A stretch of DNA of 34,850 bases, taken from positions 1 through 34,850 of the forward strand of contig JAFSNR010000166.1 of assembly GCA_017443345.1 (NCBI GenBank), written 5' to 3'. The notes under the pieces were generated by a model. That model saw only the letters and a list, made by a program, of their open reading frames with translations, made no database searches and was not told the origin of the DNA. The stretch is from Prevotella sp. Lineage in GTDB: Bacteria; Bacteroidota; Bacteroidia; Bacteroidales; Bacteroidaceae. The position numbers were made by a program, and so were the translations under genes. Shown piece by piece: positions 11,124-31,119 of the stretch (position 1 is the first letter of the stretch; every line of letters starts with the position of its first letter).

Positions 11124-11245
11124 TTAAACTCCCTTTATGCGACTACGTGTAATTCCTTATATGTCTAAGTTTTAATATGCTGATAGTGGTTCTTATGCTT
11201 TTTGCATCTGATGCTAAATGAAATAACATTTCATCTCTTGCTAAC

Positions 11246-12157: not shown

Positions 12158-12208
12158 ATTCTTATTGATTTTTAATTTAACACGTAACCTTTAAACTACA
12201 AAGGATAA

Positions 12209-12901: not shown

Positions 12902-12937
12902 GTCTTAATCGTATTATTATTTATCCATCATAAGTTA

Positions 12938-13558: not shown

Positions 13559-13580
13559 ATTTGTAAAGTTATTAGTCTTT

Positions 13581-14042
13581 CTATTTCCTAAACACTAACC
13601 AAGGAATAATATCTTTCCATTTCTCATGTGGATAATCGTCTGGCTTTCCTACGTCATGTTTAACTTCATCTTTATCGCGATAGAATACATAATCAGCTCC
13701 ACCAGTTATGTAGATAGCATCAATAAAACCATATTCGCGGAGGGCGTCAGCGAAATCCCAAAGGGTTTCTTTGTGGCGGGTAGCGATATAATAGAGTTGG
13801 TTCCCAACACGCCCTATGGCGCGACGTTCTACTTTGCCATGCAGATAGAAACGGGTGGGGATGGTGCCATCGCTGACGAGGATGAACTGGCGGAAGAAGG
13901 AGCCGCCGCAATCCTGAACGAAGTCTTTGACCTTTTCGCTCCTGGAGATGCCGATGACGCTGTTGTCGCCCAACATGGCCATATAACCCAAACGGTGGTT
14001 GTCACTCTGACGTTCTTTGGAACCGTTTTTGATATTCGTCAT
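13581..14042 (-). CDS. small cytoplasmic protein of phosphodiester-glycosidase (NAGPA) fold
   Basis: 153 residues from ATG at 14042, which overlaps the preceding stop by 4 bp (ATGA); a longer frame upstream only re-reads the neighbour's end. No signal peptide or membrane helix is present. Landmarks of the NAGPA-type fold are GYMAMLGDNSVIGISR, GGSFFRQFILVSDG (46-59), VERRAIGR (71-78), LWDFADALREYGFIDAIYITGGAD (94-117) and the end PWLVFRK. The family's DAxxLDGG loop appears as DAIYITGGAD, keeping both glycines. It is a paralogue of the extracytoplasmic domain of the gene at 8454, but shorter and soluble. Translational coupling to the AlbA_2-type gene suggests a joint role. Two broken copies of its 3' end occur at 15886 and 17435. 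Confidence 0.7.
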   Translation of the reverse strand: MTNIKNGSKERQSDNHRLGYMAMLGDNSVIGISRSEKVKDFVQDCGGSFFRQFILVSDGTIPTRFYLHGKVERRAIGRVGNQLYYIATRHKETLWDFADALREYGFIDAIYITGGADYVFYRDKDEVKHDVGKPDDYPHEKWKDIIPWLVFRK

Positions 14043-15709: not shown

Positions 15710-15826
15710 AATGTTCTAGTTGTTGTCTGAAATAGATTCACAAAATGTCAATGAGAGCAACCTCTTTCCTTTTTCGAAGTTCCTCATAGATGCATTGTGC
15801 AAACATCGCTCTTGAACTTTGTCCCC

Positions 15827-15834
15827 CAAAGATA
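15827..15834 (-). promoter_or_regulatory. -7 box for the AlbA_2-type gene
   Basis: The minus strand carries TATCTTTG, matching TAnnTTTG, about 118 bp before the start codon at 15709. No perfect TTTG lies at the ideal upstream distance, so it is a moderate candidate. The 252-bp gap 15710-15961 otherwise holds the NAGPA-like 3' remnant and nothing else I can support. Confidence 0.45.
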
Positions 15835-15885
15835 TTTTTAGTCATATGCTAAATCACTCGAATTATTGATTGTTGTCTGCATAAA

Positions 15886-15972
15886 TTATCTTTTTCTAAA
15901 CACCAACCACGGAATAATCCCCTTCCATTTCTCATGTGGATAGTCTGCGGGATTACCGACGTCATGGGCATA
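15886..15972 (-). pseudogene. 3' remnant of a second small NAGPA-like gene
   Basis: The minus strand encodes 28 residues, YAHDVGNPADYPHEKWKGII then PWLVFRKR and stop. This closely matches the end of the intact gene at 13581 (HDVGKPDDYPHEKW, IIPWLVFRK), with clear DNA identity over about 75 bp. It has no start and is fused to the end of the ATPase gene, whose stop lies inside it. A whole NAGPA-like gene evidently once followed the ATPase, as one still follows the AlbA_2-type gene. Confidence 0.8.
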
Positions 15973-17353
15973 GACCTAATACATCTTGCGGGAGCATTAC
16001 CTGCGCATTTTCACCATTCCTTGGTGGTTGCTTCAGGAACAGGACGATGTGTACGGTATGGTTTTTCTTGATGAATGGCAGATAGCGGGCTGTCTCTTCT
16101 AAGTGGGCTTTCAGTCGGGCGGCATCTTCCTCGCCAGTCCACTTGCACTCGCCAATGAGGATGTGCTTTTTGTCGAACGACTCTGCAAGAACATCTATCT
16201 CTGTCATCTTACCCTCTTTCTCATAGCCTGGAGGGAAAATCTTGCCCCACCAGCGGGAAGCCATCTTATAGGCAATGCCATCAATCATGTTGCCACTGAC
16301 ATAGTGGCGACAGAGATGCTCCCAGCAGTCACCAGCATAGCCAGGGAACTGCTCGTTGACAATCTGCATTATGGTGTCTATGCGTCCGAATTCCAGCAGA
16401 GAGCGATAGGGCGCCACAAAACGGAAATAGAACTCTGTCAGAGGATCGTCGATTCTGTAGATTCCTTTCTTGCTCGTTTTCTCATTCTCTCCGAAAGGTA
16501 TCTCCCTGCGAATGAAACCCAGTTCCCTCAGCTTGGACAGAGGTTCTGTGATGCTGGTGGCCTCCTTGCCAACCCTCGCGGCTATCTCGGAACTGCGGTG
16601 CACGCCATTGCCAATCAACGAGAGTAGTGTGGTTGTCTGTATCGTCTCGCGGAGATCATCGCGCAGCAACCTCTGTGGTTCGTCGGCCAGGATGCCTTGT
16701 GTGTCAAGGAGCATTTTCCGGATGGCCGTTTCCCTATCGACATACTCACGCCTTAGTTCCCAGTAACGGGGGATGCCACCCCATATAGCATATTCCTCGA
16801 CGGCACTCACGGCATCGCACCCTAAGGCCTCGGCTATAAAGCCCGGTGGAATCGGCTGCAGCTTGATGATCTCATCAGCCAGTCCATAAAGGGGTTCTTT
16901 CTTGTCGAGCACCAGCCCCTGCATCAGTTGCTGGGACGAGCCGCAGATAATCAGGTCAAACTTAAACGTCTTTCCATTCAGTAACTTTTGGAGAACAGAT
17001 TTCAAGGAAGGGCAGCTCTTCACCAGATAGGGGAACTCGTCGAGACAAATTTTCACGCGGCGAGTCAACTGCCTGTTCAGAGCCTCAAACAGGACCTCCC
17101 AGTCAGGATAGGTCACTTTGTCGAAGCCCTCAACGGTGAGGCTAACGGACCTTGAAAACAGGAATCGCTGATGCGACTCAGATGTCTGGTCGCACAGAAA
17201 ATACACATCCCCACGGTCAGCGTCCAGCACTTTTTTGATAAGTGTTGACTTCCCTATGCGCCGACGTCCATAGACGACAACGAACTGCGGATTCTTGCGG
17301 CCAAAGGCTTCGTTCAGCCGCTCTATATCGGCCTTTCTGTCTAAGAAATTCAT
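15962..17353 (-). CDS. DUF234-type ATP-binding protein (archaeal-ATPase-like)
   Basis: 463 residues. An N-terminal P-loop ATPase carries Walker A at 29-37 (GRRRIGKST) and Walker B at about 100-108 (VKICLDEFPYL), followed by sensor-like GSSQQLMQGL. After a winged-helix linker (about 235-285: GVHRSSEIAARVGKEATSITEPLSKL), the C-terminal part resembles DUF234 with a nuclease-like core, EIDVLAESFDKKHILIGECKW, where D, E and K match a PD-(D/E)xK arrangement. The family is widespread in Bacteroidetes and archaea without a proven role; defence-related or mobile-element functions are suspected. A strong promoter lies just upstream. Its stop codon falls within the broken NAGPA-like 3' end, so the last few residues may be altered. 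Confidence 0.85.
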   Translation of the reverse strand: MNFLDRKADIERLNEAFGRKNPQFVVVYGRRRIGKSTLIKKVLDADRGDVYFLCDQTSESHQRFLFSRSVSLTVEGFDKVTYPDWEVLFEALNRQLTRRVKICLDEFPYLVKSCPSLKSVLQKLLNGKTFKFDLIICGSSQQLMQGLVLDKKEPLYGLADEIIKLQPIPPGFIAEALGCDAVSAVEEYAIWGGIPRYWELRREYVDRETAIRKMLLDTQGILADEPQRLLRDDLRETIQTTTLLSLIGNGVHRSSEIAARVGKEATSITEPLSKLRELGFIRREIPFGENEKTSKKGIYRIDDPLTEFYFRFVAPYRSLLEFGRIDTIMQIVNEQFPGYAGDCWEHLCRHYVSGNMIDGIAYKMASRWWGKIFPPGYEKEGKMTEIDVLAESFDKKHILIGECKWTGEEDAARLKAHLEETARYLPFIKKNHTVHIVLFLKQPPRNGENAQVMLPQDVLGLCP

Positions 17354-17580: not shown

Positions 17581-20500
17581 TTATTCAAAGAAACCGAAGG
17601 CTGCTATCTGTCGCAGCATCTGGACGATGTATTCGCTGGAGGTGTCGCTCCAATGGAAACCGAGACGGTGCAGGACAGAACAGGTGTAACGGTTGTCGCG
17701 TTCGATGACAGCAGCTTTCTTTCCGTGAGTCACATCCTGATAGGCCAGCATAGCCGAGAGCAGTTTTGCCTTCTCGGGATCCTGGCCGGCAAGTTCAATG
17801 GCCTGCTGGAACTCATCAGTTTCCACAAAGCGCATCTCACGCCCTACTTTATCCATGAGGAGAAGCACATCGCCCAGAAGTTCGGTGTGGTTGTTGAAGG
17901 GTTGGAACACATTACATTCCTTAGGCGTAGAAGCAAGGAGCACCACAGCCTTGGCCGTTTCATTGATTGGCGACATCTCGGTATGCTCGTCATAGCTGTC
18001 ATAGGGACAGCAGCCCAGCGTATGGAACACCTTCAGTCGTCCCATGTAACTGTTGCTGTTGAAGTTGGCCTGGAACTCACCGTCATAGCTGCGCGGTGCC
18101 AGATTACCGACACGCATTACCTTACCACTCAGACCATGATGGGCAACGGCATCGAGCACCAGACGCTCTGCCAAGAACTTGGAGTGGATGTAACGGTTGT
18201 CGAGGAACTGGCCGAACCAGAGCTTACGCTCGTCCAACATTGGCACCTGTTCTCCGTCGTTGCGGACAATCCAGACTTCACCTACGGAGGTTGTGGAAAT
18301 ATGTACCAGCCGGGCGCCAGTCTTCAGACAGAATTCCACGCAGCGCTGAGCACCGCCGATATTCACGTCCTCAATGTCCGTTCCCTTGGAGAAGTGCTTC
18401 ACGTTGGCAGCACAGTTGAACACGGTGTCTATTGATTTACGATTTGACGATTTACAATTTACGATTTCTGTGAAATCCTGGGTCACGTCGCCATTCACCA
18501 CAAAGATGCGGCTACCGAAGAGTTCCTTAAATGACCGCTCAAAATAGTAGAACATCAAGTTCTTAAGTCGGTGCTCAGCGGAAGCCTGGTCTTTGCCTCG
18601 CACAACACACGTGATGGTTGTGGCATCGCTATCGATGAGTTCACGCAGCACGTGGATACCCAGATAGCCCGTGGCGCCTGCCAGGAGGACATGACCCAGT
18701 TGCTGACGCTCGCCTTTGAGGAACGTCTCGATATTGTTGTGCTGCAAGATGGCATCGATGCCCGAATAATCGAAGTTCTCAATCTCGGTGTCAACCTCAT
18801 TTTCCGGGGCTGCCCCACCCACAAACTGTGCCAGCAGTCGTGGCGAGGGATGATCGAATACATCACCGTATGCCACATGATGTCCGGCCTTATCGGCCTC
18901 AATAATCACCTTGGTCACCATGAGCGATGTGCCGCCCATCTCAAAGAAATTGTCAGTAGCGCCCACCTTGTCAAGCGACAAGACTCCAGCGAAGATATCA
19001 CAGAACAACGTCTCTACATCCCCTACAGGAGCCACATAATCGTGTTCCTCGACCTGTATCTGCGGTGCGGGCAGGGCGCGACGGTTCACCTTCTGGTTCT
19101 GGTTCAGTGGAATGCTGGGAATCTGCATCGTGGCAGCAGGCACCATATAAGGCGGCTTGCGGTCGCGGATGAAGGCATTCAGTGCCTGGATATCAATCTG
19201 CTGGTCGCTCACCACGTATGCCGCAATGAACTTACCGCCATTGGGATAATCGAAAGCCTGCACGGTGGCATCGCCAATGCCCGGGAACTCGCGAATGACG
19301 GATTCTACCTCCTTGAGCTCGATGCGGAAGCCACGAATCTTCACCTGCCCGTCGCGACGTCCCACAAACTGGATGTTACCGTCAGACAGATAGCGCACTA
19401 CATCGCCTGTGCGATAGCATCGCTTCCCGTTCCATTGTATATAGGTGTCGGCTGTCTTCTCCGGCAGGTTCAGGTAGCCGCGGCTCACTTGAGGACCGGA
19501 AACCAGCATCTCACCGGCGGCTCCCAATGGCAGGCGGTTCATGTCCTTATCCACAATGAAGAGTTGCAGGTTGTCCAGCGGTTTGCCGATAGGTGCATTC
19601 TGCTCGAACTCCTTCAAGGCGTAGGTGGTAGTGAAGATGGTACACTCCGTAGGACCGTAGCCATTATGCAGCTGATAGGCAGTCGGCGGCGTGAGCGGCA
19701 GAATCTTTTCACCACCGACCGAGAGGTGTCGCAGCGAGTGGTTGTCGCAGTTCATGGCAAACTGGCAGCCCACCTGTGTGGTCATGAACGAGTGCGTCAC
19801 GCCCTCCTCGTTGAAATAGGCATTCAAGTCAGGAAGGTTCAGACGGATGTCATCGCCCACAATCACAACGGCAGCACCCGATGTCAGTGCCGGATACATA
19901 TCCATCATGCAGGCATCGAAGCCGTAGCTGGCGTAGGCTGCCACCTTGTCGCCTGGTTTCAGACCATAGTAACGCTGGAACCAATGGCAGAAAGCCACGA
20001 GGTTGCGGTGCTCCAGCTGACAGCCCTTCGGATTGCCCGTAGAGCCGGAGGTATAGAGCAGGATGAAGAGATCTTCGGGTTTTATTTCGACATTTCGACA
20101 TTTCGACATTTCGATATTTCGAAGATCTTTTGTCAAGAGCACAGGGCCTTGGTACTCACTTACTTTCTCCAGCAGTGCCTCCTCGGCTATCAGCAATTTG
20201 GCGTCGGCATCCTGCATCATGAAATTCAGACGCTCTGTCGGGTAGCTGGGATCCAGCGGCTGATAAGCACAGCCGGCCTTCAGTACACCCAAGGATGCCA
20301 GCACCATCCACTCGCTACGGCCGATGAGGATGGACACGACAGGTTCGGAGTTGAGAGTTCTTGAAGGGTCAAGCGTCGCAGAGCGCCGAGCGGAGAGTTG
20401 AGAGTTGAGAGTTGACTGGATTAAGGCGGCTATGGCATCGGTCCTTTCATCCACCTCTTTATAGGTGAGTCGCACGTCATGATAGACAACAGCCAGATTA

Positions 20501-23500
20501 TCGGGCGTCTCTGCCACCTGACGGCGGAACAGCGAAATGATGGTCTGCGTGTTGTCGTAATCTACTGCTGTCTCGTTGAAAGAATCCAGCAGGGAGATGC
20601 CGGCGTTATCGGTCAACGAGATGCTGCGCAGCGGTTTGTCGGCAGCGGCAGCAAAAGCACTCACGGCATTGCTCACGCTCTGTGCCAAACTCTGCATCAT
20701 CGCCTCGCTGTACTGGCCGTTGTCGTATTCGATGGCCACGCTGGGAACATCCTCTACTTCGGTGATATAGAAGGCAATCTTGAACTTAGGCACATTCAGC
20801 TCCATCGTCTCGTCAGCCAGTACCTTCTTTCCACCTACACGGTAATCGCTCAGCACACCAATCTGGTAGGCGAACATGATGTCAGCCTTGAGACCGAAGT
20901 CAGCGGCGACACGTGCAAAGGGATAGTTCTCGTGGGCAAGGGTCTGCTCAAAGGTATCGGCACTCTCATGCAGGAACTCTTGTACACTCTGGTTATCTAT
21001 CTTGGAAGAGAGCGCAAGGGTGTTCACGAACATACCCATCGTATTGGCCACCTTCAGGTTGTTGCGGCCGTTGGAGATGGTAGTGATGCACACCTGGTCG
21101 TTACCGGAGAAACGGGCAAGACTATAGAAGACGGCACTCAGCAGTACGGCAGAAGGCTTCACGCCCTGCTGCTTGGCCAGCTGCTCAGCATCGTCCCACA
21201 CGATGGGAGCCCATACACGGCCGTTCTCGCCCTGCGGACGAGGATTGGTAAGGTCTGGTGCAAGTTCTGTCACTTCCTCCACTTCGCCCAAACGCTGCTT
21301 GAAGAACTCGGCAGCCTCGGCAAAGGCCTTACTCTGTTCAGCGGCCTTTTGCTCGGCAACGAACTGATGATAGCTACACATTTCAGGCTCAATCTCCTTA
21401 CCATCCATGAGGTCACAGATTTCGTGTATGAACAAGTCGTAGGAATAACCGTCACACACCAGGTGATGGATATCGCTATATAGATAAAGCGCTTTTTCCG
21501 TACGGATGGTGGCTAAGCGGAAGAGGCGGTCTTTGCCAAGGTTGAACGGACGTACGAAGCCGTGGCGGAAGGCGAGTGCTTCCTCTTCGCTCATGGTATA
21601 GTCTTCTACTTCTACCGGTGTCTCTCTGTCGCCCATCACCTGAACGACGCCAGTCTCGTTGGTCGTAAACTGTACGAAGAGTGCCGGATGGTTCTCCACA
21701 GCCTGCACCGCAGCCTTCTTCAGTGCTTCTACATCGGTTTCTGCAGGGAAGGTCAGGCATACGGGGGTGTTATACAGCGTGGAGGTAGGATTCTTCATGC
21801 AGTCGAAATACACGCCAGTCTGCGCATAGGCGAGCGGAGCAGACATCGGAAGGCTTGTAGTACTAGTAGCACTAGTTGTACTAGTAACACTAGCAGCTCC
21901 TCCTGAGAGGAATGCTTCCAAAATAGCATTCTCTATCGTCTGGATATTGGCACCCTTAGTGAGAAGTTGGGCATCCAGCTGTACGCCGAAACGCTTGTAA
22001 ATCTGAGTCGCCAACTTGATAGCCAAGATGGAGGTGAGGCCAACATAACGGAGGTCTGTAGTGATGCCGAAGGAGTCAGTATTCAATACTTCTGTCACTA
22101 TCTCCTTCAACTGTTGCTCAAGGATATTAAGCGGCGCAGCAGATTCTGTCTCTGTTTCTTCGGCAGCACCGAAGACTGGCTCCGGCAGCGCACGGCGGTT
22201 CACCTTTTGGTTCTGGTTCAGCGGAATGGCATCAATCTGCATCGTGGCAGCAGGCACCATATAGGGTGGCTTCTGATCCATGATGAAGCTGTTCATCGCC
22301 TTGACGTCAATCTGTTCATCGGACACAATGTATGCCGCAATGTATTTTCCGCCGGTGGGATAGTCAAAGGCCTGCACCGTGGCGTCCTTGATGCCCGGAA
22401 ACTGACGGATGACGGCTTCTACTTCCTTCAGCTCGATGCGGAAGCCGCGAATCTTCACCTGACCATCCTTACGGCCCACGAATTCGATGTCGCCGTTTTC
22501 ACGGTAGCGCACGATGTCACCCGTACGATACACGCGTTTCCCGTTCCACCCCACGAAGGCGGCAGCAGTCTTCTCTGGCTGATTCAAGTAACCTATTCCC
22601 ACCTGTGGACCGGCAATAATCAGCTCACCGGAAGCCCCCCAAGGCACCTGTTTTCCGAAACGGTTTACGATATGGAGTTCTACATGATCATTTGGCTTGC
22701 CAATGGGAATATTTGGCTCGTTCTTATCTACATAGTGGCTGCATACATAGCAGGTGGTTTCCGTTGGACCGTATGCATTGAGCAGGGCGTAGGAAGGCGG
22801 ATTCAGGCTCATGAGCTTCTCACCGCCCGTTCCAAGATATTCGAGTCCGGGAATATTGGGATAGTTGATAGCCATCTGCGTAGCCATCTGCGTGGTCATA
22901 AAGCAGTGGGTGATGCCTTCCTTGCAGATGTATTCATAGAGAGCCTCCAGATTGAACCGTATGTCATCTTGTATAATATAAATAGTAGCACCAGCCCATA
23001 CGCAGGCCCACAGGTCGTGTTGGTAGGCATCAAAGCCGTAACCGGCATAGGTGGCATAACGCGAACCGGCTTTCAGACCGGTATGCTTAACGTGGAAGTC
23101 GGTGAAGATGCGGAAGTTCTCTTCACTCAGTATCACGCCCTTTGGTGTACCCGTGGTGCCACTGGTGTAAAGCAGTACCAAGGCATCTTTTCCGTCATAG
23201 GCAGAGGCATCCTTTTTCATGAACTCCAGTCGTTCCTCAGGATAACTGCTGTCCAATGGCAGCTGGGTGAGTCCGGCCTTGGCAATGGCCAGCGGCGCCA
23301 GCACCATCTTCTCGTCGCGTGGGACGCTGAAGCCCACTACGCGTTCGCCGCAGCGGACAGTATAGGCCGGGTCGATGGTATCCGTCAGCTTATCCACCTC
23401 TGCGAAGGTGAGCCGTGTGTCGCCGGCCACCACGAAGATATCATTGGGACGCTCTGCAACATGCTGCTTGAAGCGCTCTATCAGCGTCGGCAGGCCCTCA

Positions 23501-24849
23501 GCTCCTTTCGGCGTGGGATTCAGCTTGTTGAGCCATGCCTTCTGCTCAGGGGTGCTATATTCCAGCTCACGGATCTGCTGGGCGGTTGTCATCGAATGAA
23601 GGATGGCGCCGTAGCTTGCAGCCAACTGTTCGATGAAGGCATCCGAGTAGTCACCACTGCTGTAGCCTAACTTGAGCGCATAGCCCTCTGCTTCCTCAAA
23701 GAGCTCTGCACAGAGCTTCCAGCCGGGTATCGGCTGACGCAGGTCGCTATGCATCGTTCTCTTGTCGTTTACTTGTACTGAGCCTGTCGAAGTATCGTTA
23801 AGGTCAAGGTTCATGTCGATGACCTCGCCCAGACGCTTTCCCTGGTAGGCAAACAATACCTGGTTGCTCAGTCCCAGGTCGAGCAGGGCGTCGGCATAGG
23901 AATAACACTGATAGCGCTTCAGCTGTTCTTTCTGCTCTGTCAGCATGGTGAAGAGTTCACCCAGAGGCATGTCGCCCTTCGTCTGCACAAAGACGGGCTG
24001 AGTATGTATCATCATCGTGATCGTGTTCTCGGTGCGCTGGTCGGTGCGTCCCGAGTGTATCGTGCAGTAGGATGCCTTGTCCTCTGCGCTATAGGTGGCC
24101 AGCAGCTGTGCCCAGGCTGCCTGCATGACAATGCTCTCCTTTGTAGCCCAGCGCTCCGTGATGGTTCTTACTTCCTCTTTCGTCACGTTCAGCGGGAAGC
24201 ATACGACGCGCGGCGTGGGGGGCGCCGTAGCATCCAGTGTCATCTCTGGCATGGGCAGCGAGTCGGTCTCCGCCGCATCGCAGAAGGTGCGGGCATACCA
24301 TTCCTTGGCTTCGTCCATCAGGGCCTTGTCGGCACGCTGTTGCTCTTCCGCCTCGGCAATGGCGGCTCCGTCCATCTGCTCGCCAAGGGCCTTCTCACCC
24401 TTGTAACAGCGTTCTATCTCATGCACGAACACCATGATGGAATAGCCATCTGCTATCAGGTGGTGGAAGTCCAGATAGAAATAGCACTCGCCCTTTGCTG
24501 TCTGGTAAAGCTCACAGCGATAAAGACGTTCGTCTGTCACCTCCATCGTACGGGCAAAAGTAGTCTTCACCTCGTCGATAGCACCAATCTGGCACAGGGG
24601 TACACACTGCTCCATCGCAGGGAAGCTACCACTCTCCATCTGCGGTTGGCCGTCGTTATCCATGACGACGTGCGAGGCCAGATAGGGATGTGCACAGAGC
24701 GCATCCCAGACCGCCTGTTGCAACCGCTTCATATCGGTGCCTTGGGGAAGGGTAAACAGGAAGGGTATCTGATAGTTCTTGACGTTACCGTCTGCAGCCA
24801 TGCTGGCGTAGTACACACCAAGCTGACTCTTGCTGAATGAAGATATCAT
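17581..24849 (-). CDS. dimodular NRPS, C-A-T-C-A-T-R, reductive release
   Basis: 2,422 residues, a cytoplasmic assembly line. C1 has an intact HHLIADG at about 127-133. A1 carries LLYTSGTTGTPKG at about 556-568 and ends NQNQKVNRRALP. T1 has GLTSIL at about 939 instead of the usual GGxS. C2 has HHLVCDG at about 1125. A2 has LLYTSGSTGNPKG at about 1597. T2 has DNFFEMGGTSLM at about 1966-1977. The terminal thioester reductase starts GATGYLG at about 2057 with YIHSK at about 2219. There is no thioesterase, so an NADPH-dependent reductase should release a dipeptide aldehyde, which can cyclise to a pyrazinone. The leading C domain suggests N-acylation. Tentative specificity residues are D-A-H-F-G-G-A-C-Y (A1) and D-A-M-F-S-G-G-I-F (A2). 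It starts 30 bp after the NSS transporter. Five in-frame low-complexity insertions lie in loops. No phosphopantetheinyl transferase is nearby. Confidence 0.95.
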   Translation of the reverse strand: MISSFSKSQLGVYYASMAADGNVKNYQIPFLFTLPQGTDMKRLQQAVWDALCAHPYLASHVVMDNDGQPQMESGSFPAMEQCVPLCQIGAIDEVKTTFARTMEVTDERLYRCELYQTAKGECYFYLDFHHLIADGYSIMVFVHEIERCYKGEKALGEQMDGAAIAEAEEQQRADKALMDEAKEWYARTFCDAAETDSLPMPEMTLDATAPPTPRVVCFPLNVTKEEVRTITERWATKESIVMQAAWAQLLATYSAEDKASYCTIHSGRTDQRTENTITMMIHTQPVFVQTKGDMPLGELFTMLTEQKEQLKRYQCYSYADALLDLGLSNQVLFAYQGKRLGEVIDMNLDLNDTSTGSVQVNDKRTMHSDLRQPIPGWKLCAELFEEAEGYALKLGYSSGDYSDAFIEQLAASYGAILHSMTTAQQIRELEYSTPEQKAWLNKLNPTPKGAEGLPTLIERFKQHVAERPNDIFVVAGDTRLTFAEVDKLTDTIDPAYTVRCGERVVGFSVPRDEKMVLAPLAIAKAGLTQLPLDSSYPEERLEFMKKDASAYDGKDALVLLYTSGTTGTPKGVILSEENFRIFTDFHVKHTGLKAGSRYATYAGYGFDAYQHDLWACVWAGATIYIIQDDIRFNLEALYEYICKEGITHCFMTTQMATQMAINYPNIPGLEYLGTGGEKLMSLNPPSYALLNAYGPTETTCYVCSHYVDKNEPNIPIGKPNDHVELHIVNRFGKQVPWGASGELIIAGPQVGIGYLNQPEKTAAAFVGWNGKRVYRTGDIVRYRENGDIEFVGRKDGQVKIRGFRIELKEVEAVIRQFPGIKDATVQAFDYPTGGKYIAAYIVSDEQIDVKAMNSFIMDQKPPYMVPAATMQIDAIPLNQNQKVNRRALPEPVFGAAEETETESAAPLNILEQQLKEIVTEVLNTDSFGITTDLRYVGLTSILAIKLATQIYKRFGVQLDAQLLTKGANIQTIENAILEAFLSGGAASVTSTTSATSTTSLPMSAPLAYAQTGVYFDCMKNPTSTLYNTPVCLTFPAETDVEALKKAAVQAVENHPALFVQFTTNETGVVQVMGDRETPVEVEDYTMSEEEALAFRHGFVRPFNLGKDRLFRLATIRTEKALYLYSDIHHLVCDGYSYDLFIHEICDLMDGKEIEPEMCSYHQFVAEQKAAEQSKAFAEAAEFFKQRLGEVEEVTELAPDLTNPRPQGENGRVWAPIVWDDAEQLAKQQGVKPSAVLLSAVFYSLARFSGNDQVCITTISNGRNNLKVANTMGMFVNTLALSSKIDNQSVQEFLHESADTFEQTLAHENYPFARVAADFGLKADIMFAYQIGVLSDYRVGGKKVLADETMELNVPKFKIAFYITEVEDVPSVAIEYDNGQYSEAMMQSLAQSVSNAVSAFAAAADKPLRSISLTDNAGISLLDSFNETAVDYDNTQTIISLFRRQVAETPDNLAVVYHDVRLTYKEVDERTDAIAALIQSTLNSQLSARRSATLDPSRTLNSEPVVSILIGRSEWMVLASLGVLKAGCAYQPLDPSYPTERLNFMMQDADAKLLIAEEALLEKVSEYQGPVLLTKDLRNIEMSKCRNVEIKPEDLFILLYTSGSTGNPKGCQLEHRNLVAFCHWFQRYYGLKPGDKVAAYASYGFDACMMDMYPALTSGAAVVIVGDDIRLNLPDLNAYFNEEGVTHSFMTTQVGCQFAMNCDNHSLRHLSVGGEKILPLTPPTAYQLHNGYGPTECTIFTTTYALKEFEQNAPIGKPLDNLQLFIVDKDMNRLPLGAAGEMLVSGPQVSRGYLNLPEKTADTYIQWNGKRCYRTGDVVRYLSDGNIQFVGRRDGQVKIRGFRIELKEVESVIREFPGIGDATVQAFDYPNGGKFIAAYVVSDQQIDIQALNAFIRDRKPPYMVPAATMQIPSIPLNQNQKVNRRALPAPQIQVEEHDYVAPVGDVETLFCDIFAGVLSLDKVGATDNFFEMGGTSLMVTKVIIEADKAGHHVAYGDVFDHPSPRLLAQFVGGAAPENEVDTEIENFDYSGIDAILQHNNIETFLKGERQQLGHVLLAGATGYLGIHVLRELIDSDATTITCVVRGKDQASAEHRLKNLMFYYFERSFKELFGSRIFVVNGDVTQDFTEIVNCKSSNRKSIDTVFNCAANVKHFSKGTDIEDVNIGGAQRCVEFCLKTGARLVHISTTSVGEVWIVRNDGEQVPMLDERKLWFGQFLDNRYIHSKFLAERLVLDAVAHHGLSGKVMRVGNLAPRSYDGEFQANFNSNSYMGRLKVFHTLGCCPYDSYDEHTEMSPINETAKAVVLLASTPKECNVFQPFNNHTELLGDVLLLMDKVGREMRFVETDEFQQAIELAGQDPEKAKLLSAMLAYQDVTHGKKAAVIERDNRYTCSVLHRLGFHWSDTSSEYIVQMLRQIAAFGFFE
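18429..18470. repeat. in-frame repeat in the NRPS reductase domain
   Basis: The words ATTTACGATTTGACGATTT and ACAATTTACGATTT encode EIVNCKSSNRKSID just before the conserved VFNCAANV. The same vocabulary appears in the rhamnosidase insertion near 5041. Confidence 0.65.
20083..20122. repeat. in-frame tandem repeat in NRPS A2
   Basis: The word TTTCGACA is repeated about four times (TTTCGACATTTCGACATTTC and onward), encoding NIEMSKCRNVEI immediately before the A3 core motif. Confidence 0.75.
20345..20418. repeat. in-frame repeat in NRPS A2 N-terminal region
   Basis: GAGAGTTGAGAGTTGAGAGT and a GC-rich piece (AAGCGTCGCAGAGCGCCGAG) encode about 24 residues (STLNSQLSARRSATLDPS and on) between the helix AIAALI and the conserved VVSILIGRS strand. 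Confidence 0.75.
21855..21895. repeat. ACTAGT-type repeat in the T1-C2 linker of the NRPS
   Basis: Repeats of (G)TACTAGTA and (G)CACTAGTT encode SVTSTTSATSTTS between the first carrier domain and the second condensation domain. Confidence 0.75.
23771..23803. repeat. CTGAGCCTGTCGAAG-type repeat in NRPS C1
   Basis: ACTTGTACTGAGCCTGTCGA followed by AGTATCG encodes DTSTGSVQV within a C1 loop that is shorter in C2. The core (complement CTTCGACAGGCTCAG) is a dispersed repeat known from many bacterial genomes. Confidence 0.65.
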
Positions 24850-24879
24850 ATATTAAAGATTTTTAGTTCATGGTAGGAG

Positions 24880-26211
24880 TTATATGATATGAATGGAGTC
24901 GAGGAAAATGATAAGAATGGCTATGGGCACGAGCCAACGCAGTACCACCAGATACAAGAATGACCACACACGTGAACCCTGATACCTCGCTTTGGGAACG
25001 AACCATCCTGAGAACAAGGCCGTTCCCAGTGCACCGACTGGTATCAGGATGTTGGTGGATAAGGCATTAGAGGAAATAAACAGGTTCTGCCCCATTACAG
25101 TGAGCCAGTCGGCATGGCCCGTCATCGACAGGATGCACAGCATATTGGCAACCACCAGTATCAATGCTGTCACGATAGCGCTCTGATGACGACTCAGCGG
25201 TCTCTTTGTCGTCGAAGTGGCTTCACAGATAAAAGCAATCACCACCTCCATCAGGGAGATGGTAGATGTAAGGGCTGCAACACACATTAGGCCAAAGAAC
25301 GTCACGCTGGTCAGCACCGGACTGAACATATGCTGGAAGACGGCCGGCAACGTGACGAATGTCAGTTCGGGGCCTTCAGAGGGGCTGAAACCGTAGGCGA
25401 ATACTGCGGGGAAGATGATCATACCCGACAGTAATGACACAATGATGACGAGCACAATCATCTGTAGCGACGTGGAAGCGACATCCTGATCCTTAGGCAT
25501 ATAGCCGCCATACGTGATGAGAATACCCATGCCTACGGATAAGGTGAAGAAGCTGAGTCCCATCGCCTGCAAGATGACCTTCGAAGTGATTTTCGAGAAG
25601 TCTGGCATAAACAAATACCGTAATCCGTCAGTGCCGCCGTCCAAGGAAAGCATGTGGGCGACCATGACGATTAAGAACAGGAACAAGATGGGCATGAGAA
25701 TCTTGCTCAGGCGCTCTATACCCTTGTTGACATCGAACCACAATACCGATGCCGTCAGCACAATGGCAATGATGGCATAGATGGCCATCTGCAGCGCATT
25801 ACCCTCAAACGCACTGAAATGGGCTCTCAGCGCTGCGGCATCCATTCCTGCAAAGGTGTTCGTAGCTGCCTCAACCAAGTAGTAGAAGCACCATCCCGAG
25901 ACTAGGAAATAGAAACTCATAATGACAATCACAGACACCAGAAACACCCATGAGAGCCACTGCCACCGGTTGGTGCCGGTCAATGCACGGAATGCACCGT
26001 ATGCGCTCCTGCCTGACAGCTTGCCAATCAGGAACTCGTTCATCACCAAGGGCAATCCGAACACCAGCGAACAGACAATATACAGGATGATGAACGCCCC
26101 GCCGCCATTTTCTCCCACAACGTATGGGAACTTCCAAATACTGCCCAGTCCTACGGCACTGCCTGCTGCCGCCAGCAGCACCCCTATTTTCGATGAGAAA
26201 GACTTCTCCAT
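24880..26211 (-). CDS. sodium-dependent NSS (LeuT-fold) transporter
   Basis: 443 residues with about 11 hydrophobic segments. The first helix carries GSAVGLGSIWKFPYVVGENGG, the sodium- and substrate-binding signature of the neurotransmitter:sodium symporter family, which imports amino acids or amines with Na+. The length suits bacterial 11-helix members. It lies 36 bp after the STAS gene and 30 bp before the NRPS gene in one minus-strand run, so it probably supplies or retrieves an amino acid used by, or related to the product of, the NRPS. The substrate cannot be read from sequence. Export is an alternative but is not typical of the family. Confidence 0.9.
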   Translation of the reverse strand: MEKSFSSKIGVLLAAAGSAVGLGSIWKFPYVVGENGGGAFIILYIVCSLVFGLPLVMNEFLIGKLSGRSAYGAFRALTGTNRWQWLSWVFLVSVIVIMSFYFLVSGWCFYYLVEAATNTFAGMDAAALRAHFSAFEGNALQMAIYAIIAIVLTASVLWFDVNKGIERLSKILMPILFLFLIVMVAHMLSLDGGTDGLRYLFMPDFSKITSKVILQAMGLSFFTLSVGMGILITYGGYMPKDQDVASTSLQMIVLVIIVSLLSGMIIFPAVFAYGFSPSEGPELTFVTLPAVFQHMFSPVLTSVTFFGLMCVAALTSTISLMEVVIAFICEATSTTKRPLSRHQSAIVTALILVVANMLCILSMTGHADWLTVMGQNLFISSNALSTNILIPVGALGTALFSGWFVPKARYQGSRVWSFLYLVVLRWLVPIAILIIFLDSIHII

Positions 26212-26247
26212 AATAATCTCTTGGCTTTTAGTGATGGTGCGCTTCGC

Positions 26248-26550
26248 TTATTCGAACTCGAAGAGGCTGATGAATCCCGTCAGTTTGAAAACATTCTTGA
26301 TGTCGTCGTTAACACCCTTCATCACCACCTTGCTGCCACTGGCCTTGGCTCCTTTCAGGATGCTCAGCAGAATACGCAGACCGCTGGATGCAATATATTC
26401 CAGCTTCGTGCAGTCTATAATGACATCCTTGCCTTCGCTTTGGTACAGCGGCTTCAGCACCTCCTCGACCTCGATAGCCGCAGCGGTATCCATTTCTCCT
26501 TCTAACGTAGCAACATACTTGCCGTCGATTTCTTCAATTGTTGTTTTCAT
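26248..26550 (-). CDS. STAS-domain anti-sigma-factor antagonist (RsbV/SpoIIAA type)
   Basis: 100 residues from ATG at 26550; a TTG start six bases earlier is less likely. The whole protein is a STAS domain: VATLEGEMDTAAAIEVEEVL, DVIIDCTKLEYIASSGLRIL and a final helix. Ser55-Ser56 in YIASSGLR matches the phosphorylated serine of SpoIIAA/RsbV. In partner-switching, the unphosphorylated form binds the anti-sigma kinase and a SpoIIE-type phosphatase regenerates it. The phosphatase/kinase fusion ends only 2 bp before this ATG, so both halves of the switch are coupled. No sigma factor is encoded nearby, so the downstream target is unknown. Confidence 0.9.
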   Translation of the reverse strand: MKTTIEEIDGKYVATLEGEMDTAAAIEVEEVLKPLYQSEGKDVIIDCTKLEYIASSGLRILLSILKGAKASGSKVVMKGVNDDIKNVFKLTGFISLFEFE

Positions 26551-26552
26551 AA

Positions 26553-28751
26553 TCAATTTTTATTTAAAGTTTTTATTAATGTCAATATATTCTTTCCGTC
26601 TTCACGTTCGTAGTTGATAGAGTCCATGAGTTCACGGACCAGAAGGATACCAAGACCGCCGATCTGCCGGTCTTCAACAGAAAGCGTGGTGTCGGTCTTG
26701 TCCTGCTTTGTGGGATCAAAGGGAACGCCTGCGTCAATAATCTGGAAGCGCAGGATATGGCCGTCAGACATCATCTTAATCGTGATGTCGCCGTCAGTGC
26801 CTACCGGATAGGCATAGTCTATCACATTCACCACGGCCTCCTCGACAGCAAGCCGCAACTGGCGGACCAGCGATGCATCGATGTCCAGCTTCGCGAGGGC
26901 CGATTTTATGAAACTGCTGAAGCGTGTCACTTCGTGGACATCATTCTTTAGCACGAGCGTTTCCGCCAGCGTGCTTTCAAACTGCTTGGGCGTATATCGG
27001 ATCGCCAGCATCGTCAAGTCGTCGCTCTGCTCGGCATCCTTCACGAAACCATTGACAGACTGGGTTATCTTCTCCAAAATCTCCTTGGGACCGTTATCGG
27101 CGCAGGTGTTGAGCATTGCCTGTACGCGCTCCAACCCAAACAGTTTGTGCTCCACATTCTTCGCCTCCGTCAGTCCGTCGGTATAGAGGAATATGGTGCT
27201 GTCTGGCTGTATAGATATCTCCTGAACGGTATATTTCGTATCCTCGAACACACCGACGGGCAAATGGGGATTTACGGACAGTGCGGTAGCAAATTCTTCA
27301 TTCTTCATTCTTAATTCTTCATTCATAATGAATGGCGCATCATGCCCCGCATCGCAATAGCGCAGACGTCCTGTGGGCAGATCAAGCACACCGACAAACA
27401 TCGTGATAAACATATTCGTGTCGTTGCCCTGACAGGAGACCTCGTTGATAGCTTCCATGATATGGGCTGGATTGCTATCGTGGGCAGAAGCCGAACGGAA
27501 CAGCCCATGCGTGACTGCCATCAGCATGGCCGAAGGCGCACCCTTGCCACTGACATCGCCAATGCAGAAGAACAGTTTCTCATCTCGTATAAAGTAATCA
27601 TAGAGATCACCGCCCACCTCACGGGCAGGAACCAGCGAACCCCAGACGTCCACATCATCACGGTGCAGATGATGTTCGGGCAGCATACTCTGCTGTATCT
27701 GACTGGCCACACGCAGCTCCCCGCCTATGCGTTCTTTCTCGGCATTGATCCTCCGCAGACGCTCCAGATTGCGGGAACTGCGCCAGACGATGAACCCAAC
27801 AATAAGCAGCCCTATCATCACCGGCAGCAGCAAGAAGAAGCGAATCCTGCGCAGTTTGCCGAACACGTCATTGTCGTCCAGGATATTGATAAGCACCCAG
27901 TCGGTCTTTCCGCCTATGGGGGCATAGAACACATGTTTCTTGCCACCATCTTCGTCCTCCGCCGTGAAGTAGCCTTCCTTGTCGCTATCGGTTTTCAATA
28001 TCCTGGCTGTCTCCTTGAACATCGGGCTGTCCTCACCTCCCAGCAGATTGTAGCTGCCTGTAGTTATAAACCGCTGGGTTGATTTATAGACCTTGTCCTC
28101 GTTGACGACATCGTCCAGCCAGCCGATCGAAATGTCGGCAATGACAACAGCCACTGTCCTCCCGTCGTCATCGTGTACCGGCACGCTGTAGGTGGTCACC
28201 TCAACCCGCGAGCCGTCAACATCCATGTATGGCTCGCTCCAGATACAACTGTCTGTAGCCATCGGTACGGTGTAGAACTCCGACTTGGTGTAATCATGGT
28301 TGGCTGACCCCACTTGCTTGCTTTCTATGCTGCCGTCAGCCTTGCGCAGTGTAACGGGTTCAAACCATCGTCCCTTCTCGGGATAATAGTTGGGAACGAA
28401 GGCGATGGCGCTTCCCGTGATTACGGGATTATCCTTCACCAACATTTCCGTGATCTCAAACATCCAGTCGGCTTCTTCCAGGTCTCGGCCCACCACCCAC
28501 GACATATTATCGAGTGTCACCTCAATCTTGGCCAGTTTGTTTTGTATGCAGAGGTTGAGGGCATTCATTTCGCGTTGGATGATACGCTCCACATTCTGCT
28601 GTATAATGTCCTGAGCAGAGTAGTACAAGATGCCCGTCGTCACCTCCAGCAGCAATGCCGCCGCAACGATGACAGCGAGACTGGTGTTGCTCCGGATGAA
28701 CATCCTAAAATGCCCCCACCAACCTTTATCGGCAGATTCTTTTTTATTCAT
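26553..28751 (-). CDS. sensor SpoIIE-type phosphatase fused to an RsbW-like kinase domain
   Basis: 732 residues. TM1 at about 22-42 and TM2 at about 318-338 (FFLLLPVMIGLLIVGFIVW) flank a periplasmic Cache-like sensor domain (about 45-315: ITGSAIAFVPNYYPEKGRWF, SVPVHDDDGRTVAVVIADIS). After a linker helix comes a PP2C/SpoIIE phosphatase with metal ligands in REVGGDLYDYF and GDVSGKGAPSA (about 395), ending FLYTDGLTEAKN. The last about 120 residues form a GHKL kinase-like domain (RLAVEEAVVNVIDYAYP, DAGVPFDP, GGLGILLVRELMD). One protein thus senses an external ligand, dephosphorylates the STAS antagonist and may also phosphorylate it. Residues about 474-486 (MNEELRMKNEEF) are an in-frame repeat insertion. 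It leads the STAS-transporter-NRPS operon. Confidence 0.93.
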   Translation of the reverse strand: MNKKESADKGWWGHFRMFIRSNTSLAVIVAAALLLEVTTGILYYSAQDIIQQNVERIIQREMNALNLCIQNKLAKIEVTLDNMSWVVGRDLEEADWMFEITEMLVKDNPVITGSAIAFVPNYYPEKGRWFEPVTLRKADGSIESKQVGSANHDYTKSEFYTVPMATDSCIWSEPYMDVDGSRVEVTTYSVPVHDDDGRTVAVVIADISIGWLDDVVNEDKVYKSTQRFITTGSYNLLGGEDSPMFKETARILKTDSDKEGYFTAEDEDGGKKHVFYAPIGGKTDWVLINILDDNDVFGKLRRIRFFLLLPVMIGLLIVGFIVWRSSRNLERLRRINAEKERIGGELRVASQIQQSMLPEHHLHRDDVDVWGSLVPAREVGGDLYDYFIRDEKLFFCIGDVSGKGAPSAMLMAVTHGLFRSASAHDSNPAHIMEAINEVSCQGNDTNMFITMFVGVLDLPTGRLRYCDAGHDAPFIMNEELRMKNEEFATALSVNPHLPVGVFEDTKYTVQEISIQPDSTIFLYTDGLTEAKNVEHKLFGLERVQAMLNTCADNGPKEILEKITQSVNGFVKDAEQSDDLTMLAIRYTPKQFESTLAETLVLKNDVHEVTRFSSFIKSALAKLDIDASLVRQLRLAVEEAVVNVIDYAYPVGTDGDITIKMMSDGHILRFQIIDAGVPFDPTKQDKTDTTLSVEDRQIGGLGILLVRELMDSINYEREDGKNILTLIKTLNKN
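27292..27327. repeat. in-frame ATTCTTCATTC repeat in the phosphatase gene
   Basis: ATTCTTCATTCTTCATTC followed by TTAATTCTTCATTC encodes NEELRMKNEEF between the GHDAPFI motif and the LPVGVF motif of the phosphatase. Sequences reading NEELRMKNEEF are a familiar Bacteroidales repeat product. Confidence 0.75.
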
Positions 28752-28825: not shown

Positions 28826-29701
28826 CTATTCTTCCTGCTCATAATAGTACGAGTAGTCGATTCCTTTCATGAAGATCTCGCGGTCATCAATCTTGTCGGT
28901 CATTGCCCCTTGGAGCAGAGCCTTGATGGCAGCAGAATCCGTAGTGCTTCTTCGCATGGCGGCCAGATATTCTTTCTTATCAATCTGGCTCCAGTCCACG
29001 CATAGCTTCAGGCGTTTCTTGAAAATCAAGTCCAGCCAAAGGCGCGTGCTTCGACCGTTGCCCTCCATGAAAGGATGGGCCACATTCATTTCCACATACT
29101 TGTTCACTATTTCATCGAACGTTGTTTCAGGCATCGTCTCTATCTGCTTCAGGTTCTGCATCAGATACTCTGCCCGGCAGAATAGCGTGCCGTCTTTCCA
29201 AATCGTCTTGGTTCGTATTTGTCCCGCAAAGTCGTAGAGGCCGCCAAACAAGTATGCATGAATTTGTTTCAGACACTCAATCGTCCCGGGGGTCATGCTA
29301 TCAAGCAGCCCACTCTCTATGAGTGTATAGGCCTTTTTCTTGCTTTGTCCGTCGATGCTGTTGTCGCTATAGGTGAACCACTCCAGGAACTTACGGGCGC
29401 GGTTGTTCGGATAGTTCTTCGCCAATGTCTGCACGCAGTCTGCATCCAACGCATCGGCAAAGCGTTGCTTGCCGTCGGGGGCTTGAAATTTGAAGTCGTG
29501 AGTAACGCTCACGAGTTGAACGCCCTCCGTGGTCAACTTCTTCTTCAGCCAGCGCCAATAGTTACCTGCCTTGATGTAGTCATCTTCATCGTTAATGGCC
29601 CGCACGACGTCCGTAGCCGAGAACCACCACTTGCTGTGTTCCTCGTCCCACACCGCCCGCACCTCGCGGTCATTGAAAAATCGTATCGATTTCTTAGTCA
29701 T
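28826..29701 (-). CDS. BRO-N / Fic domain fusion, putative AMP-transferase
   Basis: 291 residues. Residues about 5-110 look like a BRO/antirepressor N-terminal domain (FFNDREVRAVWDEEHSKWWFSATDVVRAINDEDDY, GKQRFADALDADCVQTLAK). Residues about 125-280 form a Fic domain with the catalytic HPFMEGNGRSTR at about 208-219, complete with His, Phe, Gly-Asn-Gly-Arg and the second Arg. Fic enzymes transfer AMP or related groups to proteins. No clear inhibitory (S/T)xxxE(G/N) helix was seen before the core, so regulation may come from the C-terminus (GIDYSYYYEQEE) or a partner. It lies 74 bp upstream of the phosphatase gene and could be co-transcribed with the NRPS operon. Confidence 0.85.
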   Translation of the reverse strand: MTKKSIRFFNDREVRAVWDEEHSKWWFSATDVVRAINDEDDYIKAGNYWRWLKKKLTTEGVQLVSVTHDFKFQAPDGKQRFADALDADCVQTLAKNYPNNRARKFLEWFTYSDNSIDGQSKKKAYTLIESGLLDSMTPGTIECLKQIHAYLFGGLYDFAGQIRTKTIWKDGTLFCRAEYLMQNLKQIETMPETTFDEIVNKYVEMNVAHPFMEGNGRSTRLWLDLIFKKRLKLCVDWSQIDKKEYLAAMRRSTTDSAAIKALLQGAMTDKIDDREIFMKGIDYSYYYEQEE

Positions 29702-29782
29702 ATCTCGTCTTACTTTTCTCTATAACGTTTTTATCTCGTTCCTTATTGTCACATCAGCCATCATCCCTCATACATCAGTCAT

Positions 29783-29813
29783 CATTAACCTTGAACCATT
29801 AACCATGAACCAT
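29783..29813. repeat. intergenic ATTAACC/TGAACC repeat
   Basis: CATTAACCTTGAACCATTAA and CCATGAACCATAA repeat short words like the intragenic insertions, but here between the two Fic genes. The 192-bp gap 29702-29893 shows nothing else clear. Confidence 0.5.
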
Positions 29814-29893
29814 AAATATTAGTATGGAAAACTCGGAAATGATATATCATTGTGTTGTTAATCCGTCGTAGCCATCTTTTTTGTTTTCGTTTA

Positions 29894-30991
29894 CTATTCC
29901 TCTTTAATCACTTCCCAATGGCCACCTTTATCAGGACCTACACGGCGGATGATGCCGTCTGCTTGCAGCTTCTTAAGATGCTTGGATACGGCGCTGCGGT
30001 TGATGCCGAGGGTTGCGGCCATCTGGGTAGAGGTGACCTTGGCGTTCCGATTAATCACGTCCAAGATAGCATCGCGAGTTTTCTGTCCACCTTTTCTGTC
30101 CACTTCTATGGTTTTCTGTCCACCTTGCCTACGGCGAATTCCGTCACGACTCGGCCATTCAAGCAAGCTTAATGGCTCTCGCTGCTCCGTCATTTCTTCT
30201 GAGGTCGAGCGAATGAATTGTTCAATATCATGTTGCAGGTGCTGACAATGAAGGCGGACCATACAATCGAGGAAGATGTTGAGGTCTTCGCTCTCGCGGG
30301 TGTCTATCAATGCCTGGATGTATTCGGCCTTGTCTTCCTTGAGTACCTTGGTCGGCAGCACATCGAACTCCCATTGCAGCAGGTTCATCAGCAGACGGCA
30401 GGTGCGTCCGTTGCCGTCTGCCCAGGGATGGATGGCCACCAGTTCGAAGTGTGCCCAGAAACTGAGGTCATAGACAGCTGCTACATCAGCGGAATCGATG
30501 GCTTTTCGACGCTTGTTAAGCTCCTCGCAAAACGCGGCCAGACGTGCAGGCACTTCCTGATACGACATATAAGACCTGCCACCCATGCCAGCCGTGACAT
30601 TCAACTTGCGCAACTCTCCCTTGGTAGCAGAAAAATCGCCGCCTAACGCGTGATACTCGCAACCCGTGCGAGCCATCACCTTCGACGCCAAAAGAACGAG
30701 CCAATCGACGGTGATAGGATCATGCCGACGAATCCACTCGCGACCGTAGTCATAAGCCACCTTCAGATCGAGGTTCATCTGCTGCTCCAGCATGGTACGC
30801 TTGCTGCTGGTGATACCTTCGTCGAACAGCAGTTGCGCCTCCACCTCCGTAACCGTACTGCCCTCTATGGCCGTAGAGTGGGTAATGATGGAGTAGAGAT
30901 AGAACTTGTCGAAGTCTATCTGGTCGGATATGCCCAATGCCTTGTGTTGCTGGAGCAATCGCAGTAGTCTGTCTTTATTCTCTTGCGTCAT
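29894..30991 (-). CDS. Fic protein with N-terminal inhibitory helix and C-terminal winged helix
   Basis: 365 residues from ATG at 30991, preceded by AAAAGG; a frame starting at 31036 inside the 107-bp repeat would add 15 residues. An inhibitory helix motif S39-TAI-E43-G44 (HSTAIEGST) is present, typical of self-inhibited Fic enzymes. The catalytic core HPWADGNGRTCR lies at about 187-198. The C-terminal part holds two GGQKT repeats (about residues 289-305) and a winged helix (about 310-365: VTSTQMAATLGINRSAVSKHLKKLQADGIIRRVG). It is thus a Fic enzyme that may also bind DNA and regulate its own expression. The 107-bp repeat upstream supplies a likely promoter. Confidence 0.9.
   Translation of the reverse strand: MTQENKDRLLRLLQQHKALGISDQIDFDKFYLYSIITHSTAIEGSTVTEVEAQLLFDEGITSSKRTMLEQQMNLDLKVAYDYGREWIRRHDPITVDWLVLLASKVMARTGCEYHALGGDFSATKGELRKLNVTAGMGGRSYMSYQEVPARLAAFCEELNKRRKAIDSADVAAVYDLSFWAHFELVAIHPWADGNGRTCRLLMNLLQWEFDVLPTKVLKEDKAEYIQALIDTRESEDLNIFLDCMVRLHCQHLQHDIEQFIRSTSEEMTEQREPLSLLEWPSRDGIRRRQGGQKTIEVDRKGGQKTRDAILDVINRNAKVTSTQMAATLGINRSAVSKHLKKLQADGIIRRVGPDKGGHWEVIKEE
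30079..30126. repeat. in-frame TTTTCTGTCCACC repeat in the Fic gene
   Basis: TTTTCTGTCCACC occurs three times in 48 bp, encoding GGQKT units between the Fic and winged-helix domains. Comparable GGQK repeats are common in Bacteroidales Fic and AlbA_2 proteins. Confidence 0.75.
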
Positions 30992-31012
30992 ACCTTTTCG
31001 TTTAAATATGGC

Positions 31013-31119
31013 CTCGGAAGTTCGTCTTTTGACCATTTGTGAGGGCAAAATTATAGAAAATTGTTTTATATTTTAGGTTCGTGCGCGAGAAAAAACGTTA
31101 ATTGGAGGTAAATTTGCGA
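31013..31119 (-). repeat. 107-bp dispersed repeat, copy 2, spanning HU 3' end and Fic promoter
   Basis: Gap-free match to 6668-6774. Here it covers the last codons and stop of the HU-like gene, the intergenic part, and an upstream ATG in frame with the Fic gene. TAATTTTG (complement at 31046-31053) fits the -7 box for Fic transcription; a -33 TTTG at the right distance is not clear. Confidence 0.8.

Follow-up and report, generated by a model that had tools for sequence, protein, structure and literature searches.

The window, that is, the whole 34,850-nucleotide stretch of Prevotella sp. DNA analyzed here, contains a minus-strand operon of four genes. The first gene (26553..28751) encodes a 732-residue sensor protein in which Pfam, an AF2 model, Foldseek, and PDB sequence matches identify a membrane dCache/PDC domain, a SpoIIE (PP2C-type) phosphatase, and a C-terminal RsbW-like HATPase kinase (Pfam MCP-like_PDC_1 2.3e-18, SpoIIE 3.6e-49, HATPase_c_2 3.4e-26). 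It is followed by genes for a STAS protein of 100 residues counted from the ATG (26248..26550; Pfam STAS 1.3e-16; above the cut-off of NCBIfam TIGR00377 ant_ant_sig), a 443-residue SNF/NSS family sodium-dependent transporter (24880..26211; Pfam SNF 8.3e-43; above the cut-off of NCBIfam NF037979 Na_transp), and a 2422-residue NRPS with the organization C-A-T-C-A-T-reductase (17581..24849), in which Pfam finds AMP-binding in three stretches, two Condensation and two PP-binding domains, and a C-terminal NAD_binding_4 domain. With the STAS start taken as the ATG (an alternative upstream TTG at 26556 is in the ORF list), the intergenic gaps are 2, 36, and 30 bp. A first-pass annotation, made from the sequence alone, had proposed this co-directional arrangement, the domain make-up of all four products, a periplasmic Cache-like domain in the sensor protein, and the lack of a sigma factor in the operon; the coordinates, the Pfam matches, and Foldseek matches to dCache domains bear it out on each of these points.

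Modeled with AF2 (pLDDT 80.8, pTM 0.51, built from 8 sequences only), the sensor protein matches the RsbU-RsbW domains of Rv1364c, the PP2C domain of SiaA, and several dCache domains (3lib, Mlp24, PctA, TlpA) in Foldseek, while its phosphatase part matches the phosphatase domains of SiaA, RssB, and SpoIIE. PDB sequence matches of the sensor protein are Rv1364c, SiaA, RsbW, and SpoIIAB, and those of the STAS protein are anti-anti-sigma structures and also MlaB. The D/G motif columns of the PP2C domain are invariant across eight aligned proteins, and in the alignments the metal-site motifs of the window SpoIIE appear intact and the N and G boxes of the RsbW-like kinase are visible; judged by motif, the SSG of the STAS protein (Ser55/Ser56) falls at the position of the phosphorylated serine in RsbV/SpoIIAA-type proteins. 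By these sequence comparisons, all parts of an RsbU/RsbV/RsbW-type partner switch are present in the window, with motifs that look intact.

The motifs that we take to characterize the NRPS domains (HHxxxDG in both C domains, the carrier serines, and GATGYLG and YxxxK in the reductase) are all found in the translation, and the product is predicted to be released as a peptide aldehyde or alcohol. AusA (aureusimine), the nearest NCBIfam model, likewise has two modules and a terminal reductase; the window NRPS differs in having an extra N-terminal condensation domain, and at 997.5 bits it lies far below the equivalog cut-off of 2500 and is not assigned to the AusA family. The gut dipeptide-aldehyde NRPS families are also two-module enzymes with a terminal reductase.

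Just upstream of the operon are two consecutive Fic-family genes on the minus strand (28826-31048), the second with a winged-helix C-terminus by Pfam. Genes for RhuM-like, AlbA_2/RecG-like, and VapE-like proteins and a DUF234 ATPase lie around the operon (window 9760-17353 and 31847-34051), a setting that suggests an accessory region.

Linkage of switch genes and reductase NRPS in the genus

With the C-A-T-R half of the window NRPS as query, 114 of 299 sampled genus genomes matched at 1e-60. Sixty regions were fetched from these 114 genomes, mostly full-length matches by score, with split and contig-edge matches largely left out, and two further regions were added (L031, initially found by means of a SpoIIE search, and L039), giving 63 NRPS ORFs with the window excluded. 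Removal of five ORFs under 1600 aa and ten with less than 2.5 kb upstream left 48, in which the near-identical cassettes L117/L119 and L131/L133 are each counted separately.

A same-strand SpoIIE gene is located within 6.5 kb of 33 of the 48 NRPS ORFs and a STAS gene within that distance of 32; both are present on the same strand in 32, and the order SpoIIE > STAS > NRPS is kept in 31 of these. Only about 0.04 SpoIIE-protein matches per 20.5 kb are expected by chance from the same-genus density (128 matches to the window sensor protein in 23 genus genomes, sensor-only matches included). Because two-thirds of the ORFs have both genes, nearly all in the order of the window, the linkage goes beyond chance, and the gene order is conserved in relatives as the operon proposed in the first-pass annotation implied. 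L096 has SpoIIE and STAS on the strand opposite the NRPS, and L121 scored as kinase-only owing to a short stretch; L243, which holds the same cluster, has both SpoIIE and STAS genes upstream. For 12 of the 48, neither strand carries a SpoIIE, STAS, or kinase gene within 6.5 kb; one of these, the second NRPS of L122, follows a cassette in tandem. The tree of the NRPSs contains a clade, to which L128-L133 belong, that is without the switch in the sequence examined, and the switch is spread across much of the remainder. L153, outside the 48, has SpoIIE-kinase and STAS genes behind its NRPS, and no SpoIIE or STAS gene was found near the single-module NRPS of L135-L137 or the reductase-less NRPS of L154-L157 in the stretches examined.

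The four-gene set with SNF, which the first-pass annotation took as the unit, is not the typical form. Among the 32 loci with both switch genes, an outer-membrane barrel is encoded in 21, a MATE exporter in 19, and SNF in four, and the commonest cassette is SpoIIE-kinase > STAS > outer-membrane barrel (Alginate_exp) > NRPS > MATE. The window is a cassette variant in which SNF replaces the barrel and the MATE exporter. SNF also lies immediately upstream of the NRPS in L081, L083, and L121/L243, with SNF fragments in L079, L091, and L108, and close relatives of the window show intermediate forms: STAS > barrel > SNF > NRPS in L081, and a barrel upstream with SNF downstream in L085. SNF adjoins an NRPS without switch genes in L083 and L095, and the closest NRPS relative (G083, 92% identical) has an SNF fragment only, with no switch gene in the 2.7 kb present. 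SNF proteins are mostly importers, so the window SNF may import a precursor instead of exporting the product. In eight loci (L086, L089, L092, L102, L103, L112, L123, and L134) the STAS gene directly adjoins the NRPS gene, with a gap under about 160 bp. In L111 (1687-2843), genes for a phosphopantetheinyl transferase and for a separate RsbW-like protein immediately precede SpoIIE > STAS > barrel > NRPS > MATE.

Outside the genus, 22 of 395 genomes in a phylum sample have a match at 1e-100. Beyond the family, switch genes are in the cluster at three of 13 Bacteroidales loci fetched (L138, L139, and L140, from three further families); several of the 13 are truncated by the end of the contig, and in L146 a STAS gene lies at a distance of about 6 kb.

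Across 26 cassettes, the window included, the sensor changes fastest (median identity 0.30) and the STAS protein is most conserved (0.72). Distances between switch proteins do not track those between the NRPSs (Spearman -0.22 to 0.18), and the switch parts co-vary with each other. A fast-changing sensor combined with a constant STAS protein suggests an exchangeable input module and a STAS target that is common across clusters. As far as sequence can indicate, transporters would fit such a shared target better than a specific NRPS surface; a shared regulator would also fit.

MATE-kinase fusions in relatives

The MATE exporter of the L121 cluster provided the first case of an exporter with an extra C-terminal domain, matching Pfam HATPase_c_2 at 8.7e-13. 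This domain has matches in 35 of the 299 genus genomes, and at all 30 loci among the matches listed MATE and kinase are in a single ORF (three ORFs are cut). NRPS domains are found nearby in 10 of 20 genus fusions whose surroundings were examined. Among GTDB contigs, a scan detected 123 relatives, and 78 of the best 80 are fusions. Within the stretches examined, these 78 have an NRPS in 34 cases, STAS or SpoIIE in 16, and both in 10; the other 44 are without an NRPS, and most of the fusions are without STAS or SpoIIE. They come mostly from Prevotella, Prevotellaceae, and Bacteroidales of the rumen and other ruminant stomachs, and also from Muribaculaceae, Bacteroides, and one Fibrobacter, in which STAS, SpoIIE, and one kinase gene lie divergently next to the fusion (L297). 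No archaeal locus is among the best 80 of the 123. When five genomes behind the GTDB fusion loci were searched with the NRPS, one matched. The fusions of L205, L212, and their relatives adjoin a lon protease gene, with no NRPS in the stretches examined.

In eight loci (L222, L223, L226, L230, L241, L242, L243, and L249) the fusion gene lies between STAS and NRPS, and in L226, L230, and L241 it overlaps the STAS gene by a few bases. L243 has the order SpoIIE-kinase, STAS, barrel, MATE-kinase, SNF, NRPS. In L223 the order is SpoIIE without kinase, STAS, MATE-kinase, NRPS; because its SpoIIE protein ends after the phosphatase domain, the kinase of the exporter is the sole HATPase that the profiles used find in its 20.4 kb. 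The STAS proteins beside the fusions have the SSG motif in seven of the eight and SSSG in L230.

The fused domain matches SpoIIAB (3.7e-05) and RsbW (0.0016) in PDB profile searches, and the catalytic-box residues E, N, D-x-G, and G are invariant among 29 aligned fusions. A model of the fusion (pLDDT 83.4) shows a MATE fold (TM 0.84 to the Pyrococcus furiosus MATE) followed by a mixed alpha-beta domain. The fusion is missing from the window, whose SNF ORF has no kinase domain by Pfam; at E 1e-12, a search with the domain gave no match in the genome to which the window belongs. In the open-access literature we found no published description of MATE and an RsbW-like kinase joined in one protein. 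Within that literature, the exporter-kinase fusion of the relatives appears to be the new element of this widespread Bacteroidales cassette.

Sigma factors and other switch loci

Sigma70_r3 proteins number two in the window's own genome, two in each of six genus genomes with at least ten SpoIIE matches, and, among nine genus genomes without SpoIIE matches, two in eight and three in one; ECF factors are outside this count. An extra sigma factor of the group surveyed was rejected as the switch target, its number not rising with that of SpoIIE. That the number stays at about two with none or many SpoIIE matches, ECF factors uncounted, supports an output other than a sigma factor, for which the first-pass annotation had suggested the transporter, the NRPS, or a remote factor. 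The Bacteroidota -7 box has the consensus TAnnTTTG; none was found upstream of the SpoIIE, STAS, SNF, NRPS, or Fic genes, but with only 0.09 occurrences expected per 300 nt this absence has no bearing on separate promoters, which the first-pass annotation had named as a refutation of the operon. The profiles used detect no regulator gene in the NRPS cassettes, in which some flanking ORFs are without assignment.

The window's own genome has 13 STAS matches and 22 SpoIIE Pfam matches, of which two fall in a single split ORF. Many of its switch genes (e.g. L035, L036, L038, and L042-L048) lie beside other transporters or metabolic genes, and some genus genomes have none. A second NRPS of the same architecture in this genome (C147; L039:157-7998 and L151:13796-15163) has a lone RsbW-like kinase gene 42 bp upstream and a MATE gene downstream. 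This kinase is 65% identical to that of the window, and cross-talk with the window's STAS protein is possible.

Eight SpoIIE-kinase loci away from NRPS genes were examined: five adjoin a transporter (SNF, CitMHS twice, SBF, MFS), two lie beside DNA-binding regulators, and one lies beside an outer-membrane barrel. At L033:10725-11590 and L038:10067-10975, a regulator gene (of the AraC type and the LuxR/GerE type, respectively) is located directly behind STAS, and these two Bacteroidales modules may be partner switches with DNA-binding proteins as targets. At L030:5649-6842, one ORF combines STAS with an APH-like phosphotransferase domain; its neighbors encode a SpoIIE-kinase and a CitMHS transporter.

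Discussion

We favor a model whereby the window encodes a ligand-set RsbU/RsbV/RsbW-type partner switch that is tied to the synthesis and export of the NRPS product and has as its output most likely transport and not a dedicated sigma factor; we assign this reading a probability of about 0.45. It builds on what is directly established: which genes and domains are present, that their linkage and order are conserved, that relatives have kinase-exporter fusions, and that switch-rich genomes show no additional sigma-70 group protein. On the outer side of the inner membrane, a ligand would bind the dCache domain and change how the SpoIIE phosphatase and the RsbW-like kinase of the same polypeptide balance each other; this balance would set STAS phosphorylation at Ser55/56, and STAS or the kinase would contact the transporter directly (SNF in the window, mostly MATE in its relatives), thereby controlling the transport step. 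That a ligand is sensed, that STAS is phosphorylated, and that the transporter is the target are all steps that we infer.

The fusion of the kinase to the exporter in some relatives suggests that the switch may control transport and not gene expression alone, and it favors the transporter over the NRPS as target. The transporters next to most of the examined SpoIIE-kinase loci away from NRPS genes count in the same direction. A precedent comes from MlaB, a STAS-only protein reported to bind the MlaFEDB transporter and to be needed for it; MlaFEDB differs in being an ABC transporter, and the account has no phosphatase/kinase partner switch (PMC7367683). Counted against the transport output are the dozen NRPS ORFs without switch genes in reach, SNF beside switch-less NRPSs (including the fragment in G083), the many fusions without NRPS, STAS, or SpoIIE, the STAS genes beside DNA-binding regulators in L033 and L038, the lack of a MATE-kinase fusion in the window and its own genome, and switch distances that do not follow those of the NRPS. 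We are tentative about the stricter version of the model, a doubtful proposition in which partner switching is free of transcription and STAS with an RsbW-type kinase (in relatives inside MATE) gates transport of the NRPS peptide upon an extracellular ligand, perhaps the product itself.

Partner switching, control of a transporter by a STAS protein, direct enzyme targets, control of secretion, and NRPS genes beside switch genes are all already in print. RsbU/RsbV/RsbW and SpoIIE/SpoIIAA/SpoIIAB combine a phosphatase, a STAS protein, and a HATPase kinase as in the window, and Rv1364c, like the window's sensor protein, has its phosphatase and its kinase on a single polypeptide; the window differs from these systems in having no cognate sigma factor in the operon, a membrane dCache sensor, and transporter and NRPS neighbors. 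SiaABCD of Pseudomonas aeruginosa is described as sigma-free, with a membrane SpoIIE-type phosphatase, a small partner protein, and an enzyme as target; it differs in its separate kinase SiaB and its diguanylate cyclase target. The window was rejected as a SiaABCD system (NCBIfam SiaA 55.5 bits against a cut-off of 700, a fused RsbW-type kinase, and no diguanylate cyclase among the four genes). In the outline given by a review, switch proteins of Bordetella (BtrUVW) act on secretion, with type III secretion as an output that differs from ours, and SypE/SypA of Vibrio fischeri pairs a dual kinase/phosphatase with a STAS protein and has a non-sigma or unknown output in a biofilm context (PMC8256260). 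Both systems also differ from the window in their gene surroundings.

A close parallel is in an archaeon. By its description, Methanobrevibacter ruminantium M1 has NRPSs of two C-A-T modules beside switch genes and MatE (mru0066-0071 and mru0512-0516; PMC2812497). In that paper, genes for two serine phosphatases, an anti-sigma factor antagonist, and MatE surround an NRPS gene, and the authors suggest that they serve in sensing and in control of the NRPS; the text names the terminal domain a thioesterase, the Figure S8 legend a thioester reductase, and the second locus joins a PPTase, a serine phosphatase, STAS, and an RsbW-type kinase, resembling L111 with its PPTase gene among switch genes (PMC2812497). 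Compared by description only, these loci differ from ours in their archaeal host and, in the account given there, in the lack of any mention of a MATE-kinase fusion, and the window differs in having SNF. Because this coupling was published in 2010, the claim of the first-pass annotation that none had been described is only partly right.

Among other outputs, we consider transcriptional control the most serious contender, if rather an unlikely one: the RsbW-like domain or STAS would bind a distant sigma or ECF factor or a DNA-binding protein and thereby control either a remote regulon or the operon of the NRPS. Partner switching canonically has such an output, as reviewed (PMC8256260), the paralogous modules L033 and L038 carry their AraC- or LuxR-type gene directly behind STAS, and for M. 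ruminantium it was NRPS expression that the authors proposed to be regulated (PMC2812497). However, neither the NRPS cassettes, as far as their ORFs are assigned, nor the Sigma70_r3 counts, as far as these reach without ECF factors, point to a partner of this kind. Moreover, the similar gene set beside the archaeal NRPS cannot work through a bacterial sigma factor, which, to our knowledge, archaea cannot use, and the kinase-exporter fusion is hard to explain through transcription alone.

We think it improbable that the transporter is instead the input, with a kinase fused to MATE or near SNF reporting flux to a STAS protein that acts elsewhere. CbrA-type symporter-histidine kinases exemplify a transporter fused to a sensor kinase, so a transporter-fused kinase could be a transport-coupled sensor, and L223 has only the kinase of its exporter; however, the cassettes already have a dedicated periplasmic sensor and no downstream effector was found. 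Least probable is that STAS or the kinase toggles synthesis by acting directly on the NRPS megasynthase: STAS abuts the NRPS in the eight loci from L086 to L134, a lone RsbW does so in the window's own genome, and STAS proteins can activate enzymes directly, as reported for SiaC and the diguanylate cyclase SiaD, but none of the annotated loci shows a switch domain fused to an NRPS, the distances of the switch proteins do not correlate with those of the NRPSs, and more than half of the 78 MATE-kinase fusions have no NRPS in the stretches examined.

If the switch acts on the exporter, as we favor, partner switching would gain a direct membrane-transport output. If, in addition, the transcription-free version is true, the exporter-kinase fusion would represent a transporter class that is regulated by, or reports to, a partner switch, and the presence of similar gene sets beside an NRPS in one archaeon would make sense. 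The fusions turn the question of the targets of sigma-less partner switches into one for a binding or transport assay. Rumen and gut Bacteroidales have many NRPS clusters with uncharacterized products and regulation, and a figure of 934 NRPS gene clusters is given for Bacteroidaceae (PMC8241843); a conserved sensor-switch cassette in which the sensor evolves fast and the STAS protein stays constant offers a handle for switching such clusters on.
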